Translations under genes and position numbers: made by a program
Notes under the pieces: model-generated
What the model saw: only the letters and a program-made list of their open reading frames with translations
Told to the model about the DNA's origin: nothing
Databases searched by the model: none
Shown: positions 6,301-39,294 of the stretch, in pieces
Layout: each line of letters begins with the position of its first letter
Numbering within the stretch: the stretch's first letter is position 1
Assembly: GCA_014728225.1 (NCBI GenBank)
Contig: WJLX01000007.1
Coordinates: forward strand, 1 to 39,294
Source of the DNA: Candidatus Coatesbacteria bacterium
Lineage (GTDB): Bacteria; RBG-13-66-14
Length of the DNA: 39,294 nucleotides
Reading direction: 5' to 3'

Positions 6301-7554
6301 ACACCGGAGGGCGAGCAGACCGGCGACGTGACCATCGCCTACGAAATCAGCGACCGCGAGGGCGACCCCGTCGACCTGACCCCCGAGTTCAGCCGGGACG
6401 GCGGGGCCACCTGGGAGCCGGCGACGGTCACCGGTCAGACCGCAGGCATCTCCGAGACGGCCTACAACGGTTCCTTGATCTGGAACTCCACCAGCGACAT
6501 CGACATGCTCGACCTGTTCGAGGTCCAGTTCCGCCTGACCCCGGCCGACAACGATACCGGCGAAGCCGACACCACGAGCAGCTTCCAGGTCGATAACTCC
6601 GACATCCCCGCGGTCAGCGTGTTCACCCCCGAGGGCGAGCAAACCGTCGACGTGACCATCGCTTACGAAATCAGCGACCGCGAGGGCGACCCCGTCTCGC
6701 TCAAGCCCGAGTTCAGCCGGGACGGCGGGGCCACCTGGGAGCCGGCGACGGTCACCGGCCGGACCGCCGACATCGGTCCCGAGGGCTATAACGGCGAGCT
6801 TATCTGGAACTCCAAGACCGATACCGACAATTACGACCTCTTCGAGGTGGTCATCAAGCTCACCCCCTCGGACAACGACGAGGGCACGCCGGACCAGACG
6901 GCGCCCTTCCAGGTCGATAACAGCGATCCGCCCTCGATCAGCCTGACCGACATCACCGAGGAACAGACCGCCGACGTGACGATCCAGTACACCATCAGCG
7001 ACCGCGAGGGCGACCCGGTCAGCCTGACCCCCGAGTTCAGCCGGGACGGCGGGGCCACCTGGGAGCCGGCGACGGTCACCGGCCGGACCGCCGACATCGG
7101 TCCCGAGGGCTATAACGGCGAGCTGATCTGGAACTCCAAGAGCGATACCGACATGCTCGACCTGTTCGAGGTCCAGTTCCGCCTGACCCCGGCCGACAAC
7201 GATACCGGCGAAGCCGACGCCACGGTCAACTTCCAGGTCGATAACTCCGATCCGCCGGCCGCCGAGCTGGGCGCCGTCGAGGCCGAGGTCTCCGGCGACA
7301 TCATCATTCCCTACACCCTGTCCGACCGCGAGGGCGACCCGCTGACCATCACCTGCGAATACTCTCTCGACGGCGGAACGACCTGGCAGCCCGCCTCGGT
7401 GCGCAACCCGACCGAGGACCTGACCACGGCTCAGTACACCGGCGATATCATTTGGGATTCGGTCACCGATCTAGACGGCGTCGACGCCGCCGACGTGGTC
7501 TTCCGCGTCACCCCGGCCGACAACGACACCGGTCAGGCGGCCACCGTCCGCTAG
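358..7554 (+). CDS. Giant secreted FG-GAP/VCBS plus tandem beta-repeat protein
   Basis: This is a 2398-residue protein starting at GTG with a Sec signal peptide (KR-rich start, hydrophobic LILLLAAAGVV, likely cut after VRA). Residues about 45-430 are FG-GAP/VCBS-type beta-propeller repeats with calcium-binding-like patterns such as DINGD and DIDGDG. From residue about 440 there are 18 tandem units of about 108 residues. Each follows the pattern EEQTGDVTIxYxISDREGDP, then EFSxDGGATWxPATV, LTWNS, FRLTPADNDTGE and PFQVDNS. The last unit stops after PADNDTGQAATVR, about 10 residues short of a complete repeat. No transmembrane anchor or sorting tail is visible. Such proteins are usually extracellular or surface adhesins, but the ligand is unknown. 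Units from about 10 onward resemble each other most, so the array probably grew by internal duplication. The reading frame is certain; the function is inferred only from domain type. Confidence 0.93.
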   Translation: MKRIPTLRFCLILLLAAAGVVRAQSISWSFDTAAEDEASRSVQSSPCLADANGDGQQEIFFGSGGGTFYALYSNGQQWWSYPTDGVIFSSPAVGDINGDNRPEVVVGSDDGGIYAFRASGGLLSGSWPVFTGGPVRGSALLADIDDNGTDDIVITAGDGKLYALDYQGYDLPGFPYKLGSASESSPTAADIDNDGMLEIVVGDNSGFVHAVNHDGTPLGGWEMPKSTGYSVKSSPALGDIDGDGFLEIVVGSEDFKVYAWKPNGLLMSGWPVPTEYNIFHSSPAIADVDGDSEVEVVIASGDGRVYALEANGRSVPGFPLVQPAVEGTTGSATIHGSVTLADMGAGLAAVVGAEDGKIYAWKVSDGQIHPGFPVPIANGAVRSTPAIGDLEGDGTTEIVAGNNDGNLACIEVGGGFDPDRAPWPMFLNNPTHVTLFGHGAVPEVAIEPIEGEQTGDVSISYQISDRQNDTVKLWVLYSDDSGGTYHEASVSGQTTGLGPSDYTGSVVWHSRDDMDHIEETGVKIKLVAEDQTGMGLGIESGLVHLDNNDPPRAIIEPLEGEQTGDVYINYRLEDDESDELLVTCEYSVDGGETWLEALGAEGNLHHIDPAHYADQLIWDSRVDLEEQHVEGCLFAITPEDRDVGQRVVSAPFTVDNNPPPTMFVENVTGEQSDRVEINYEVTDTGDDEISLACYYSPNFGKDWFEATVEGPTSGIRMQEMAAYDWVGTGQLVWLSSADLPSVDRPEVQFRIIPSDLDEGEEDDTVPFRVDNNEPPTARVTDISTEVSGEVQLSFAIDDPENDTCDVLLEYSIDGGATWNPAYAKETIEPEGKETNLVRGLESSRPSHSITWLSTVDEDQLDTEQAMLRITARDNDLAASPASTVAFHLDNNETPTLTVDSITEESSGDIPIGYQLDDREQDVLSIACEFSADGGTTFQPATVSGATSGIGPAAYDGEIVWNSAADFDGRDEQNLVFRITVADNDTGDFSATAPFWVDNSVPPSVAITAITEEVSADVPIDYTLTDREGDPLSIVCEYSDDGGSTFQPATVAGQTEGIGSAGYDGTITWNSAADTTGVDQQDVFFRIRPFDNDEGESAQIGALHVDNSFEPTVQITTTLEGEQTGDLAFAYQLNDQEQDTLSLTPEFSQDGGGFWQPATVSGQTDNLTPEIYGGQLVWNSKTDLLGADLENVMFRLIPADNDTGEPAAVGPFHLDNNAVPAAELAQVTGEQSGDVVIGYNLTDDEGDITAILPEYSIDGGTTWNEATTKGLSTAAYSGELIWESVADIDGEDSEQVVFRITPEDNDVGEPGLTPAFHVDNNHVPVCNVADYTEEQTGDIEVVYNVNDREGDYVSLTAEYSLDGGTTFKPATVTGALSEIGPTPYEGYFTWNSGADIQGLDSESVVFRVTPADNDTGESGQCAPFHVDNSTAPSVTLTAITEEQSGEVQIQYALTDVEGDPLSIIPEFSPDGGATWQPATVLGRVENISPELYSGSLTWQSAVDMDMVDNFETHFRVRPFDNDEGDSDQIGPFQVDNSDVPGVVVQTPEGEQTADVTIAYQITDREGDPVSLTPEFSPDGGATWQPATVSGQTEGIGQSGYTGSLTWNSKLDLDQVDNFEVAFRLTPADNDVGEPYSTDIFQVDNSDAPTITLAPITEEQTGYVTVDYLISDREGDPVKLTPEWSADGGTTWNRATVSQQVDIGSTGGIPPENYDGSLDWNSKTDTDFVDLPEVLFRLTPEDNDVGEPVTTGPFRLDNSDVPTITLVTPSGEQTADVVIDYEISDREGDPVSLTPEFSRDAGTTWEPATVTGQTADIDSAGYLGSLTWNSKSDIDMLDLFEVQFRLTPADNDTGEPAATGTFQVDNSDPPAIVLSDITEEQSGDVTIAYEISDREGDPISLKPEFSTDGGASFAPATTSGVLTEIGPGAYSGTLTWQSVSDMDGLDSTSVVFRLTPADNDQGAADETAPFQVDNSDAPRVSVVTPEGEQTGDVTIAYEISDREGDPVDLTPEFSRDGGATWEPATVTGQTAGISETAYNGSLIWNSTSDIDMLDLFEVQFRLTPADNDTGEADTTSSFQVDNSDIPAVSVFTPEGEQTVDVTIAYEISDREGDPVSLKPEFSRDGGATWEPATVTGRTADIGPEGYNGELIWNSKTDTDNYDLFEVVIKLTPSDNDEGTPDQTAPFQVDNSDPPSISLTDITEEQTADVTIQYTISDREGDPVSLTPEFSRDGGATWEPATVTGRTADIGPEGYNGELIWNSKSDTDMLDLFEVQFRLTPADNDTGEADATVNFQVDNSDPPAAELGAVEAEVSGDIIIPYTLSDREGDPLTITCEYSLDGGTTWQPASVRNPTEDLTTAQYTGDIIWDSVTDLDGVDAADVVFRVTPADNDTGQAATVR

Positions 7555-7630
7555 TCCGACAGTCCATCTTTCCAACCGAGGCTCGCGGCCCGTGCTCCGG
7601 TCGTGGTCGGTTCGACGGTTAACGATCCGC

Positions 7631-7653
7631 GGCCCCGCTCCCCGGGGCCCTTT
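7631..7653 (+). terminator. Weak terminator-like hairpin between the two repeat proteins
   Basis: GGCCCCG (7631-7637) pairs with CGGGGCC (7643-7649) around a 5-nt loop and is followed by CTTT. The U-tract is short, so it may only attenuate transcription into the next gene. Confidence 0.4.
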
Positions 7654-7674
7654 AACGGCGCAAACGAGGTTATT

Positions 7675-9720
7675 ATGAAGCTCCGAGCCGTCTTGCTCGC
7701 TCTGTTGACGCTCCTCGCGGCGGCGTACGCCTTCCGGGTCGATAATAACGAGCCGCCCTCGATCGTCTTGACGGACATCACCGAAGAGCAGACCGCCGAC
7801 GTGACGATCCAGTACGAGATTTCGGACCGCGAGGGCGATCCGATCTCGCTCAAACCGGAGTTCAGCCGGGACGGCGGGGCGACCTGGGAACCGGCGACGG
7901 TGACGGGTCAGACCGCGGAGATCGGCCCGGCGGGCTACGTCAGCACGCTGACCTGGAACTCGAAGCAGGACGTCGACATGCTGGACCTGTTCGAAGTCCA
8001 GTTCAAGCTCACGCCGAGCGACAACGACGAGGGCACGGCGGACGCGACCAGCAACTTCCAGGTGGATAACAGCGATATCCCCAGCATTGTCTTGACGGAC
8101 ATCACCGAAGAGCAGACCGCCGACGTGACGATCCAGTACGAGATTTCGGACCGCGAGGGCGATCCGATCTCGCTCAAACCCGAGTTCAGCCGGGACGGCG
8201 GGGCGACCTGGGAGCCGGCGACGGTGACGGGCCAGACCGCGGAGATCGGCCCGGCGGGCTACGTCAGTACGCTGACCTGGAACTCGAAGCAGGACGTCGA
8301 CATGCTGGACGGCGAGTACGTCTTCCGCATCACCCCGGCGGACAACGACACCGGCGAACCAGCAGCCACCGGCCCCTTCCAGGTCGATAACAGCGACGTG
8401 CCGACGATCAGCCTGACCACGCCGACAGGCGAGCAGAGCGGCGACGTCGAGATAGCCTACGACCTGCAGGACCGGGAGAACGACCCGATTACGCTGACGC
8501 CGGAGTTCTCGGCCGACGGCGGAGCCAGTTGGCGGCCCGCCACGGTGACGGGTCAGACCGAGAGCGTCACGCCGGGTCCGGGGAGCCTGACCTGGAACTC
8601 GAAGCAGGACGTCGACATGCTGGACGGCGAGTACGTCTTCCGCATCACCCCGGCGGACAACGACACCGGCGAACCGGCAGCCACCGGCCCCTTCCAGGTC
8701 GATAACAGCGACGTGCCGACGATCAGCCTGCAGCCGATCAGCGAGGAGCAGTCCGCCGAGGTCGAGGTGGCCTATGAGCTGTCCGATCGCGAGAACGACC
8801 CGATTACGCTGAGCGTCGAGTACTCGACGGACGGAGCGATTTGGAACCCGGCCGATGTCAGCGGGCGTTTAGAAGGTGTGACCCCGGGGCCGGGCAGCTT
8901 GACCTGGAACTCGACGACCGACCTGGACGCCCGCGACCTGCCCGCCGTCTACCTGCGTGTTACCCCGGCGGACAACGACACCGGCGAACCCGCCCAGACC
9001 GGTCCCTTCCCCCTGGACAACTCCGAGGCCCCGCGGATCGAATTGCAGACCCCGTCGGGCGAGCAGTCGGGAGCCGTCGAAATCGGCTATACTATCAGCG
9101 ACCGTGAGGACGATCCCGTTTCCCTCGAGGTCTCCTACAGCCTCGACGGTGGCTCGAGCTGGGACCCGGCCACCATCGCCGGTTCGCTCGAGGGGTTGAC
9201 CCCGGATCCGGGCGCCTTTACCTGGCAGAGCGACACCGATGCACCGGGTGTCGACGAGAACGCCGTGATGATCAGCGCCCTGCCCTCCGACAACGATCAG
9301 GGCCAGGAGGGGCTGACCGGCATCTTCATGCTCGACAACAACCAGCCGCCGTCGGCTGAACTCAGCCTGCCCGCCGGTACCCTGTCCGGCATCGTCCAGG
9401 TCACCGTTACGCCGCTGGATCCGGAAGGTGATCCGGTGGATTGCGGACTCGAATACGACGCCGGAACGGGTTGGACGCCGGCCTCGATCAGCGGCGGCCT
9501 CAGCGGGCTCACCGGACCGACGACGGTCAGTTGGGACACGGTGATGGACCTGGGCGAAACCGCCGCTTCCGGCACCCTGAGGGTGATTCCGGCGGACAAC
9601 GACACCGGCGAACCCGGCACCGTTCCCTTCAGCGTCGACAATACCCCGGCGCCGCCGCCCGAGCCCGAGCCGGAGCCCGAACCCCAACCCGAGGACGAAA
9701 CGTCACCCGGAGCCCCGTAA
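7675..9720 (+). CDS. Secreted tandem beta-repeat protein, second member
   Basis: This 681-residue protein starts at the ATG at 7675, preceded by GAGG with a 5-nt gap. A longer GTG start at 7603 would place 24 unlikely residues before the signal peptide. The signal peptide (KLRAVLLALLTLLAAAYA) is followed directly by FRVDNNEPPS, which is the end of a repeat unit, so there is no separate N-terminal domain. Six repeat units of the same family as the upstream protein follow. The first two are nearly identical, and the second and third share an almost identical block. The protein ends in a Pro/Glu-rich tail (repeated PEPEP). It lies in the same frame as the upstream gene, and the only stop codon between them is one TAG. 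It is probably a surface or secreted partner, or a fission product, of that protein. Ligand and function are unknown. Confidence 0.9.
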   Translation: MKLRAVLLALLTLLAAAYAFRVDNNEPPSIVLTDITEEQTADVTIQYEISDREGDPISLKPEFSRDGGATWEPATVTGQTAEIGPAGYVSTLTWNSKQDVDMLDLFEVQFKLTPSDNDEGTADATSNFQVDNSDIPSIVLTDITEEQTADVTIQYEISDREGDPISLKPEFSRDGGATWEPATVTGQTAEIGPAGYVSTLTWNSKQDVDMLDGEYVFRITPADNDTGEPAATGPFQVDNSDVPTISLTTPTGEQSGDVEIAYDLQDRENDPITLTPEFSADGGASWRPATVTGQTESVTPGPGSLTWNSKQDVDMLDGEYVFRITPADNDTGEPAATGPFQVDNSDVPTISLQPISEEQSAEVEVAYELSDRENDPITLSVEYSTDGAIWNPADVSGRLEGVTPGPGSLTWNSTTDLDARDLPAVYLRVTPADNDTGEPAQTGPFPLDNSEAPRIELQTPSGEQSGAVEIGYTISDREDDPVSLEVSYSLDGGSSWDPATIAGSLEGLTPDPGAFTWQSDTDAPGVDENAVMISALPSDNDQGQEGLTGIFMLDNNQPPSAELSLPAGTLSGIVQVTVTPLDPEGDPVDCGLEYDAGTGWTPASISGGLSGLTGPTTVSWDTVMDLGETAASGTLRVIPADNDTGEPGTVPFSVDNTPAPPPEPEPEPEPQPEDETSPGAP

Positions 9721-9723
9721 ACG

Positions 9724-11019
9724 ATGAACCGCGTCCCGCGTTACAGCCTGGTCCTGCTGCTCCTCGTCGCGGTGACGAGCAGCCCGGCCCTGCCCCGGGT
9801 GGTCTGTCTGCCGCTCAATAACGAGGGCGCCGCCGTCGATTCCTGGTACTCCCTGGGATTGACGGAGGCCCTGGCCTATCGGCTCAACGCCGACAAGGCC
9901 GGTGTGGGCATCGGATTCCGCACCCTGCGGGAGACGCTGGCCGAGCTGTCCCTGGGGCGTCAGGACAGCTTCAACGACGCCGATTACGACAAGCTGATCG
10001 AGAAGCTGCGCCCCGATTACTATCTGACCGGCTCCTATCTGGTCGAGTGGCCCGCCGACATCGCCGAGGACCCGCGCTTCGAGGTTGAGGTCGCCCTGCT
10101 CTCTCACCCCGCCGAGGAAGAGCTGTTCAACATCCGCTTCACCGGCATCGATCTGCTGGCCATCGAGGTCGAGATCTACAAGGAGCTGCGCCTGGCCCTG
10201 GATGATCCCCTCGACGAGCTGGAACTGGATCGGGCGCGGGAAGTGGTCACCTTCAGCCATCGAGCCTACCGCTGGTTCTGCCGCGCCCTGGGCAGCGTCA
10301 ACTCGGGAACCCAGGAAGCCGCCCACCTGCGACGGGCCCTGGAGATCGCCCCCGACTTCTGGGTCGCCCGGCGCGAGCTGGCCCGGGTGCTCCTCGAGCT
10401 CGGCTCCTCCGCCGAGGCCCTCGAGGCCGTTCTCGAGGTCTTCCGCCAACAGCCCGACGATCCCTGGACGCTCAAATACTACGCCGACGTCCTCGAACGC
10501 CTGGAGGACGAAGAGAAGTCGATGCGGATGTACCGGCGGGCCTCCCTGGCCGACGAACGCCACTGGCGCATCCACCTCGAGCTGGGCCGCCACTTCGAGC
10601 GCGTCGGCTACAGCGATTTCGCCGAACGCTGCTACGAGAAGCTCCTCGACCTTGACGACGATTTCTACGTCGCCTACCGCGGCCTGGGCAAGATTCTGTT
10701 GGCCCGGGGCGAATACGACCGCGCCCTGGAGCTGCTCCAGCGGGGTGAACCCCTGGCGCCCCGTGATCCCGAGTTCCACAGTCTCCTCGGCCAGGCCTAC
10801 GTCTCCAACGGCTTGTTCGACGACGGCATCGCCGAGCTGCAGCGCGCCGTCGAGCAGAATCCCGCCGAGGGCCGCTACGCCTACCAGTTGGGTTTCGCCT
10901 ACTACCGCAGCGGCGACACCGTGGCCGCCGACGAGTGGTGGCGCACCGCCGAACTCCTCGGCTACCGCCCCGGCGAGGAGGGCGGACTCGAGGGCCCCGA
11001 GGCCGACGGAACCTTCTAA
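9724..11019 (+). CDS. Secreted tetratricopeptide repeat protein
   Basis: This 431-residue protein has a Sec signal peptide (residues 1 to about 20, hydrophobic LVLLLLVAVTSS). Residues about 21-130 form an alpha/beta domain (VVCLPLNNEGAAVDSWYSLG, then a YLTGSYLVEW strand). It resembles the TolB-N/FlgO-like domains often found before TPRs, in which a lipoprotein or periplasmic protein begins with a VxxLPF-type strand. From about residue 170 to the end there are six or seven TPR helices pairs, for example RRALEIAPDFWVARRELARV and LGKILLARGEYDRALELLQR. The ATG lies 3 nt after the stop of the preceding repeat-protein gene, so the two are probably co-transcribed and translationally coupled. It may be a periplasmic scaffold for export or assembly of the repeat proteins; that role is inference. 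Confidence 0.88.
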   Translation: MNRVPRYSLVLLLLVAVTSSPALPRVVCLPLNNEGAAVDSWYSLGLTEALAYRLNADKAGVGIGFRTLRETLAELSLGRQDSFNDADYDKLIEKLRPDYYLTGSYLVEWPADIAEDPRFEVEVALLSHPAEEELFNIRFTGIDLLAIEVEIYKELRLALDDPLDELELDRAREVVTFSHRAYRWFCRALGSVNSGTQEAAHLRRALEIAPDFWVARRELARVLLELGSSAEALEAVLEVFRQQPDDPWTLKYYADVLERLEDEEKSMRMYRRASLADERHWRIHLELGRHFERVGYSDFAERCYEKLLDLDDDFYVAYRGLGKILLARGEYDRALELLQRGEPLAPRDPEFHSLLGQAYVSNGLFDDGIAELQRAVEQNPAEGRYAYQLGFAYYRSGDTVAADEWWRTAELLGYRPGEEGGLEGPEADGTF

Positions 11020-21344: not shown

Positions 21345-21425
21345 GGCCGGGATCTGGCTGGGGAAGCGAAAGTAGGGTGTTCTGGTGTAGCTGGGCGGCT
21401 GGATCGGCGCCAATCGCTCGGTGGC

Positions 21426-21597
21426 GGTTTCGAGTGTAACGGCGTTTCAACACGCCACGGGCCTCGCGCTGCTGGCCGCCGGGGTCGGGTCGGGGTCAAC
21501 CGCCGGGGGCCGGTTTCGAGTGTAACGGCGTTTTTAGCGCGCCACGGGCCTCGCGCTGCTGGCCGCCGGGGTCGGGTCGAGGTCAACCCCCGGGGGC
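21426..21597. repeat. Two tandem copies of an 86-bp non-coding repeat
   Basis: Copy 1 starts at 21426 and copy 2 at 21512, each beginning GGTTTCGAGTGTAACGGCG and containing CCACGGGCCTCGCGCTGCTG. They differ at only a few positions, mostly in TTTCAACACGCC versus TTTTTAGCGCGCC. The period is not a multiple of three and there is no ORF, so this is a non-coding duplication between the HU gene and the WbpD-like gene. The rest of 21275-21723 shows no gene. A minus-strand TTGACT near 21700 could be a -35 for the HU gene, but its -10 is poor. Confidence 0.85.
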
Positions 21598-21723
21598 CGG
21601 CCGCGACCGTTGTTGCAATTCAACTCCGTCAAGGGTTCAGTTGGAGGTTGAATTGTGCAGGTCATTGTCTAACTTAAGGTTACCAAACGCCCTTTTTTCA
21701 AGTCAAGGGCTATGTGGGTTTTT

Positions 21724-39106: not shown

Positions 39107-39294
39107 AGAAGCCACCCTTGCGGGTGGTTGGCGGGTTGGAGCGCAGGGGCGATGGCGCGGAGTATCACCGGTGTTCGAAACGTAACCGAAAAGAAGCCAC
39201 CCTTCGGGGTGGTTGGCTGGTTGGAGCGCAGGGGCGATGGCGCGGAGTATCACCGGTGTTCGAAACGTAACCGAAAAGAAGTCACCCTTCGGTG
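39107..39294. repeat. 85-bp tandem repeats running off the window end
   Basis: Copies begin at 39107, 39192 and 39277, the last truncated by the window. The first two differ at only about three positions. Each carries a hairpin CCACCC-4 nt-GGGTGG (39112-39127 and 39197-39212). Read on the minus strand, the hairpin has a GNRA-like loop (GCAA or CGAA) and is followed by CTTCT or CTTCTTTTC, like an intrinsic terminator. No credible gene is present. Confidence 0.85.

Follow-up and report, generated by a model that had tools for sequence, protein, structure and literature searches.

Two secreted repeat proteins are encoded side by side on a 39,294-nt contig of a Candidatus Coatesbacteria genome (GenBank assembly GCA_014728225.1, contig WJLX01000007.1, referred to here as the window). 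The upstream gene, A, stops before the end of its last repeat, and the mature product of the downstream gene, B, is predicted to begin with a piece that looks like the missing end. Does this arrangement capture a gene in the course of splitting or fusing, as a first-pass annotation proposed, or are A and B established genes, and if so, how did B arise?

Organization of the locus

The window corresponds to contig C7 in a genome of 2.96 Mb assembled into 181 contigs (G000). Its extremities are repetitive. At the start, the 14-mer acgatgatcttgag is repeated twice (positions 1 to 29), probably as a contig-end effect. At the other end, an 85-bp unit is present 2.2 times (39107 to 39292). A second copy of the latter, 94% identical, lies on contig C170 (17292 to 17446), and a dispersed repeat therefore probably broke the assembly at this end. 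Elsewhere in the window, two adjoining 87-bp copies of a GC-rich unit, 93% alike, occupy positions 21425 to 21600.

The features of the A-B locus are given in Table 1, together with those of G003, a separately assembled genome from another genus of the same family. The product of gene A consists of a signal peptide, an FG-GAP-type beta-propeller (residues 25 to 430, approximately), and 18 Ig-like repeats of about 108 aa each, with an Asp-box (SxDGGxTW). Curated Pfam cut-offs were exceeded by the propeller (PF13517, 78.5 bits; PF01839, 67.9 bits) and by the Asp-box (PF02012). Gene B encodes a signal peptide, a linker, six Ig-like repeats (five in G003), and a Pro/Glu-rich tail. Both products are probably exported and surface-exposed. 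With its propeller and Asp-box repeats, A resembles the known secreted proteins that combine FG-GAP propellers and Ig-like repeats. It differs from them in its roughly 108-aa repeat, which was matched by no whole-length Pfam or NCBIfam model and for which a sequence search returned no relative of solved structure. A Foldseek search with a two-repeat model matched tandem Ig-domain structures, such as fragments of titin, at a whole-chain TM of about 0.3. Given this low score, the matches point only to the general Ig-like fold of the model.

Table 1. Features of genes A and B and of the interval between them (window coordinates)
Feature	Position	Strand	Remarks
Gene A, secreted protein, 2398 aa	358..7554	+	ORF, Pfam matches, repeat profile, structure model
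18th and last repeat of A	7246..7551	+	102 residues, ends GQAATVR, without the FxVDN linker strand
Stop codon of A, TAG	7552..7554	+	TAA in G003
Intergenic spacer, 120 nt	7555..7674	+	unalignable with the 115-nt spacer of G003
Candidate signal peptide of B, MKLRAVLLALLTLLAAAYA	7675..7731	+	by eye, -3/-1 rule; G003 counterpart MKARLLLIVILLLLSGASA
FRVDN, FxVDN linker strand	7732..7746	+	opens the predicted mature part of B; remainder of its domain absent
Gene B, secreted protein, 681 aa	7675..9720	+	found in the window's family only
TPR protein	9724..11019	+	directly 3' of B; neighbor of B also in G001, G002, G003, G004, and G005

Upstream of gene A, the window's family carries secA, which points in the opposite direction in G001 and G003. 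It spans positions 360 to 3686 of L074 in G003 and, judging by its ends, which resemble those of the G003 copy, 351 to 3725 of L044 in G001.

The complementary ends of A and B in the window

A repeat profile of 108 positions identified 18 repeats in A and 6 in B. The reading frame of A ends with TPADNDTGQAATVR, immediately followed by the stop codon at 7552, and its 18th repeat matches profile positions 1 to 100 only, so that the end of the unit is indeed lacking, as first described. Directly after the signal peptide, which is plausible for B by sequence, the predicted mature part of B starts with FRVDNNEPPSIVLTD. Its first residues, FRVDNNEPPS, are the piece absent from the 18th repeat of A, and in G003, too, the mature start of B supplies the strand that the last repeat of A lacks. 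The repeat-coding parts of the two genes are separated by 180 nt (7552 to 7731), comprising the TAG, 120 nt of spacer, and the 57 nt of the signal peptide, and the frame is kept across them. The joined unit would contain 107 residues, not the usual 108, within an array in which units range from 101 to 119.

The contents of the interval listed in the first-pass annotation, a TAG followed by 40 codons without an in-frame stop and then by a signal peptide, are present. Shuffling the window spacer would leave 40 codons free of stops in 39% of cases, and its openness therefore carries no meaning. The hairpin was no better than those of shuffled sequences either in the window (z = +1.03) or in G003 (z = +0.40). 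A purine-rich stretch precedes the ATG of B in both genomes (GAGG ahead of the ATG at 7675 in the window and AAGGGGA in G003), and a search for promoter-like and terminator-like patterns between 7300 and 7900 found none. These signals suggest that B is probably translated from the message of A by its own start.

The same division in a second genus

In G003, A and B follow one another in the same order as in the window. Gene A of G003 ends with FRVTPSDNDVGEAATVR (DVGEAATVR, then the stop; GEAATVR versus GQAATVR in the window), its last repeat being the ortholog of the last repeat of A in the window. Gene B starts with a signal peptide ending in SGASA, followed by FRVDNNEPPK. The two genes are thus divided at the identical residue in both genera, and the stub FRVDNNEPP is the same in both, although the spacer and the signal peptide have diverged. 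The spacers scored 37 when aligned with each other as opposed to 35.9 +/- 6.6 for shuffled sequences, and 144 of the 300 shuffles aligned at least as well. The last repeat of A and the first 330 nt of B are each 75% identical between the two genomes at the nucleotide level, with third codon positions accounting for 41 of 75 and 42 of 81 changes, respectively. Since third-position changes dominate both flanks, both genes are, by their substitution patterns, maintained as coding sequences in both genera.

The length of the G003 spacer, 115 nt, is not a multiple of 3, which puts B out of frame with A; 25 codons further on, the frame of A meets a second stop. Because the frame is not kept in G003, the match of 180 nt to the reading frame in the window is a matter of chance, 1 in 3. 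The same cut, the unalignable out-of-frame spacer, and the preserved coding flanks indicate that the separation of A and B predates the split of the two genera and that it is old and fixed. The 180-nt interval of the window consists of an ordinary intergenic spacer followed by the first part of gene B.

This comparison bears directly on the proposal that a fission or fusion is still in progress, with occasional read-through of the TAG producing a protein of over 3,100 residues. The 180 nt of the window genome, in frame and free of a second stop, would fit such a proposal. The TAA, the shifted frame, and the further stop of G003 speak against it, as do the frequency of open frames among shuffles, the absence of RNA structure beyond that of shuffles, and the fact that read-through would leave a signal-peptide sequence inside the protein. 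We therefore regard an ongoing event in the window as extremely improbable, and the G003 junction rules out both read-through and an event in progress as conserved features.

The junction is spanned in two genomes, those of the window and of G003. In G001, G002, G004, G005, and G006, either the contigs break within the repeats or B is absent. Breakage of this kind, seen in several relatives, would also be in line with an assembly artefact in a repeat-rich region. The same junction was recovered in the separate assembly of another genus, and a collapse of repeats cannot generate a spacer with a ribosome-binding-like site and a signal peptide. The probability of an artefact is accordingly very low.

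The C-terminus of gene A in other families

Gene A is carried by four other families of the phylum, with 16 repeats where it is complete (G007, G009, G010, and G011), and B was not detected in the genomes of these families. The last repeat of A in G007, G009, G010, G011, and G012 matches profile positions 1 to 99-101 only, and the protein ends without the FxVDN motif. In G009, A ends with DEGTSSELEL, within one alignment column of the DTGQAATVR of the window. The other genomes of this set extend beyond that column by an unrelated tail of a few to about 18 residues.

AlphaFold predicted the last repeat of the window's A, without the linker strand, as a block with pLDDT of 88 to 97, in which the last residues, ATV, form a strand. 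FxVDN constitutes a strand and a linker into the next domain, so the last domain can do without it. Because families without a detected B have the same open C-terminus, A does not appear to be truncated, contrary to the initial reading. On both the alignments and the structure prediction, A is a complete protein, with a natural C-terminus that stops short of the FxVDN linker. The alternative outcome envisaged at the outset, relatives whose 18th repeat is complete and whose second gene is unrelated, was not found. The relatives display a third state: their A has 16 repeats and the same open C-terminus, and a second gene was not detected.

Origin of gene B

The sequences support A and B being homologous repeat proteins. 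Of the six further genomes of the window's family, five yielded gene B with the TPR gene next to it, whereas in the sixth, G006, only a piece of that TPR gene was present. No clear ortholog of the TPR gene was present in other families. In a quick mixture-model tree of the repeats, repeats 1 and 2 of B nested within the group formed by repeats 11 to 17 of A (support, 83 to 91), and the last two repeats of B were too divergent to be placed. Most middle and late repeats in the window's family resemble one another, as would be seen after homogenization or re-expansion. Among the A proteins of G007, G009, and G010, many of the 16 repeat positions remain individually recognizable from one family to the next.

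We infer that B most likely arose by duplication, and we consider it probable that A and B are two long-established separate genes, B having been copied from the late repeats of A beside A itself. A block of these repeats, cut at a linker, would have been copied next to A and would have come to stand behind a new signal peptide, yielding gene B. Arrays of this type readily gain and lose whole units, as the repeat counts of A, 16 in G003 against 18 in the window, illustrate. The reason for favoring duplication is that A alone equals the A of other families in both the number of repeats and the position of its end. The residue-exact fit between the end of A and the start of B is a mild coincidence under duplication, estimated at about 1 in 5.

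With fission, that fit comes free. In this scenario, the ancestor of the family possessed a single A-B gene of about 21 repeats, which was cut at a domain linker when it acquired a stop and, after it, a new start plus signal peptide. The exactly complementary cut in two genera is explained better by such an event than by duplication, and the shared order and orientation of A and B, as well as the resemblance of the first repeats of B to the late repeats of A, agree with it. Yet a fused A-B gene was not found in any of 14 genomes of the phylum. In addition, A stands alone in every other family that was read; its complete copies have 16 repeats, the number found in A of G003, and it has the same open C-terminus. 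Fission would make the last repeat of B the counterpart of the last repeat of the outgroup. The outgroup last repeat was not the best match of the last repeat of B, and the tree uniting the two was the worst of three compared. AU tests rejected neither the last repeat of A (p = 0.37) nor that of B (p = 0.28) as this counterpart, the latter value being compatible with fission; the last repeats of A in the window and of A in other families are not demonstrably orthologous, which weakens the case for duplication. A short constrained-tree search gave a higher likelihood to the grouping of the last repeat of B with those of the outgroup; the gain was absent from longer LG+G4 searches, run on a different set of rows. 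Profile scoring by repeat position and profile-profile scores likewise left the last repeats unplaced, 108 columns being too few to place them. Families differ in the order of genes around A. In G007 and G009, A is followed not by B, the TPR gene, and YicC but by a protein with a GYF-like domain and then a TonB C-terminal-like domain (L077, 9670 to 10842, and L075, 170 to 1327, respectively). Since the neighbors of A differ in this way, they cannot date B. Ancient fission appears less likely than duplication, though worth retaining next to it. The relative weights of the two are a matter of judgement and were not computed.

A different significance of the matching ends is suggested by pili. 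In donor-strand exchange, an Ig-like domain of a pilus subunit has an open edge that is filled by the free N-terminal strand of its neighbor. The last Ig-like domain of A has an open edge and B has a free N-terminal strand, so FRVDN of B might complete the last domain of A in trans. By this analogy, the two exported proteins would dock end to end into a longer noncovalent fiber. We judge both the strand complementation and the fiber very unlikely. The two genera share the stub FRVDNNEPP without a single difference, and FRVD forms a strand among blocks with pLDDT of about 80 to 93 in a model of the read-through product, a plausibility check whose alignment included intact paired repeats, which would by themselves favor a strand, and from which the partner of the strand cannot be read. 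On the other hand, the other linkers of the array show good conservation as well, making the identity of the stub nothing special, and A ends similarly in families where B was not detected. Unlike a pilus subunit, moreover, the last domain of A is predicted to be well folded alone, although the pLDDT cited above is not a test of stability, and the strand of B is a piece of a linker.

Relation to known systems and meaning

A search of the literature on surface proteins of this phylum returned nothing relevant. Arrays of domain repeats usually grow through internal duplications that copy several units together, often in the central part of the array (PMC1553488). The proteins described here conform to this pattern in that the number of repeats differs between close relatives and the late repeats resemble one another as a block. 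They depart from it in that part of the array resides in an adjoining gene with its own signal peptide. Pairs of genes related by fission or fusion in prokaryotes have been surveyed for Archaea (PMC11237513). A and B resemble such pairs in being adjacent on the same strand, with ends that complement one domain; they differ in that no fused homologue was found and that the single-gene relatives consist of A alone.

Seen in one genome, the perfect in-frame complement suggested an ongoing event; a single relative sufficed to reveal that the split is old and the frame a coincidence, which calls for caution with similar cases. If true, strand complementation would be a simple means of docking surface proteins to one another. 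The locus carries two repeat-protein genes in a fixed tandem arrangement whose ends match, a product of ordinary repeat-protein evolution and a small, clean case of how a repeat array can give rise to two exported proteins.
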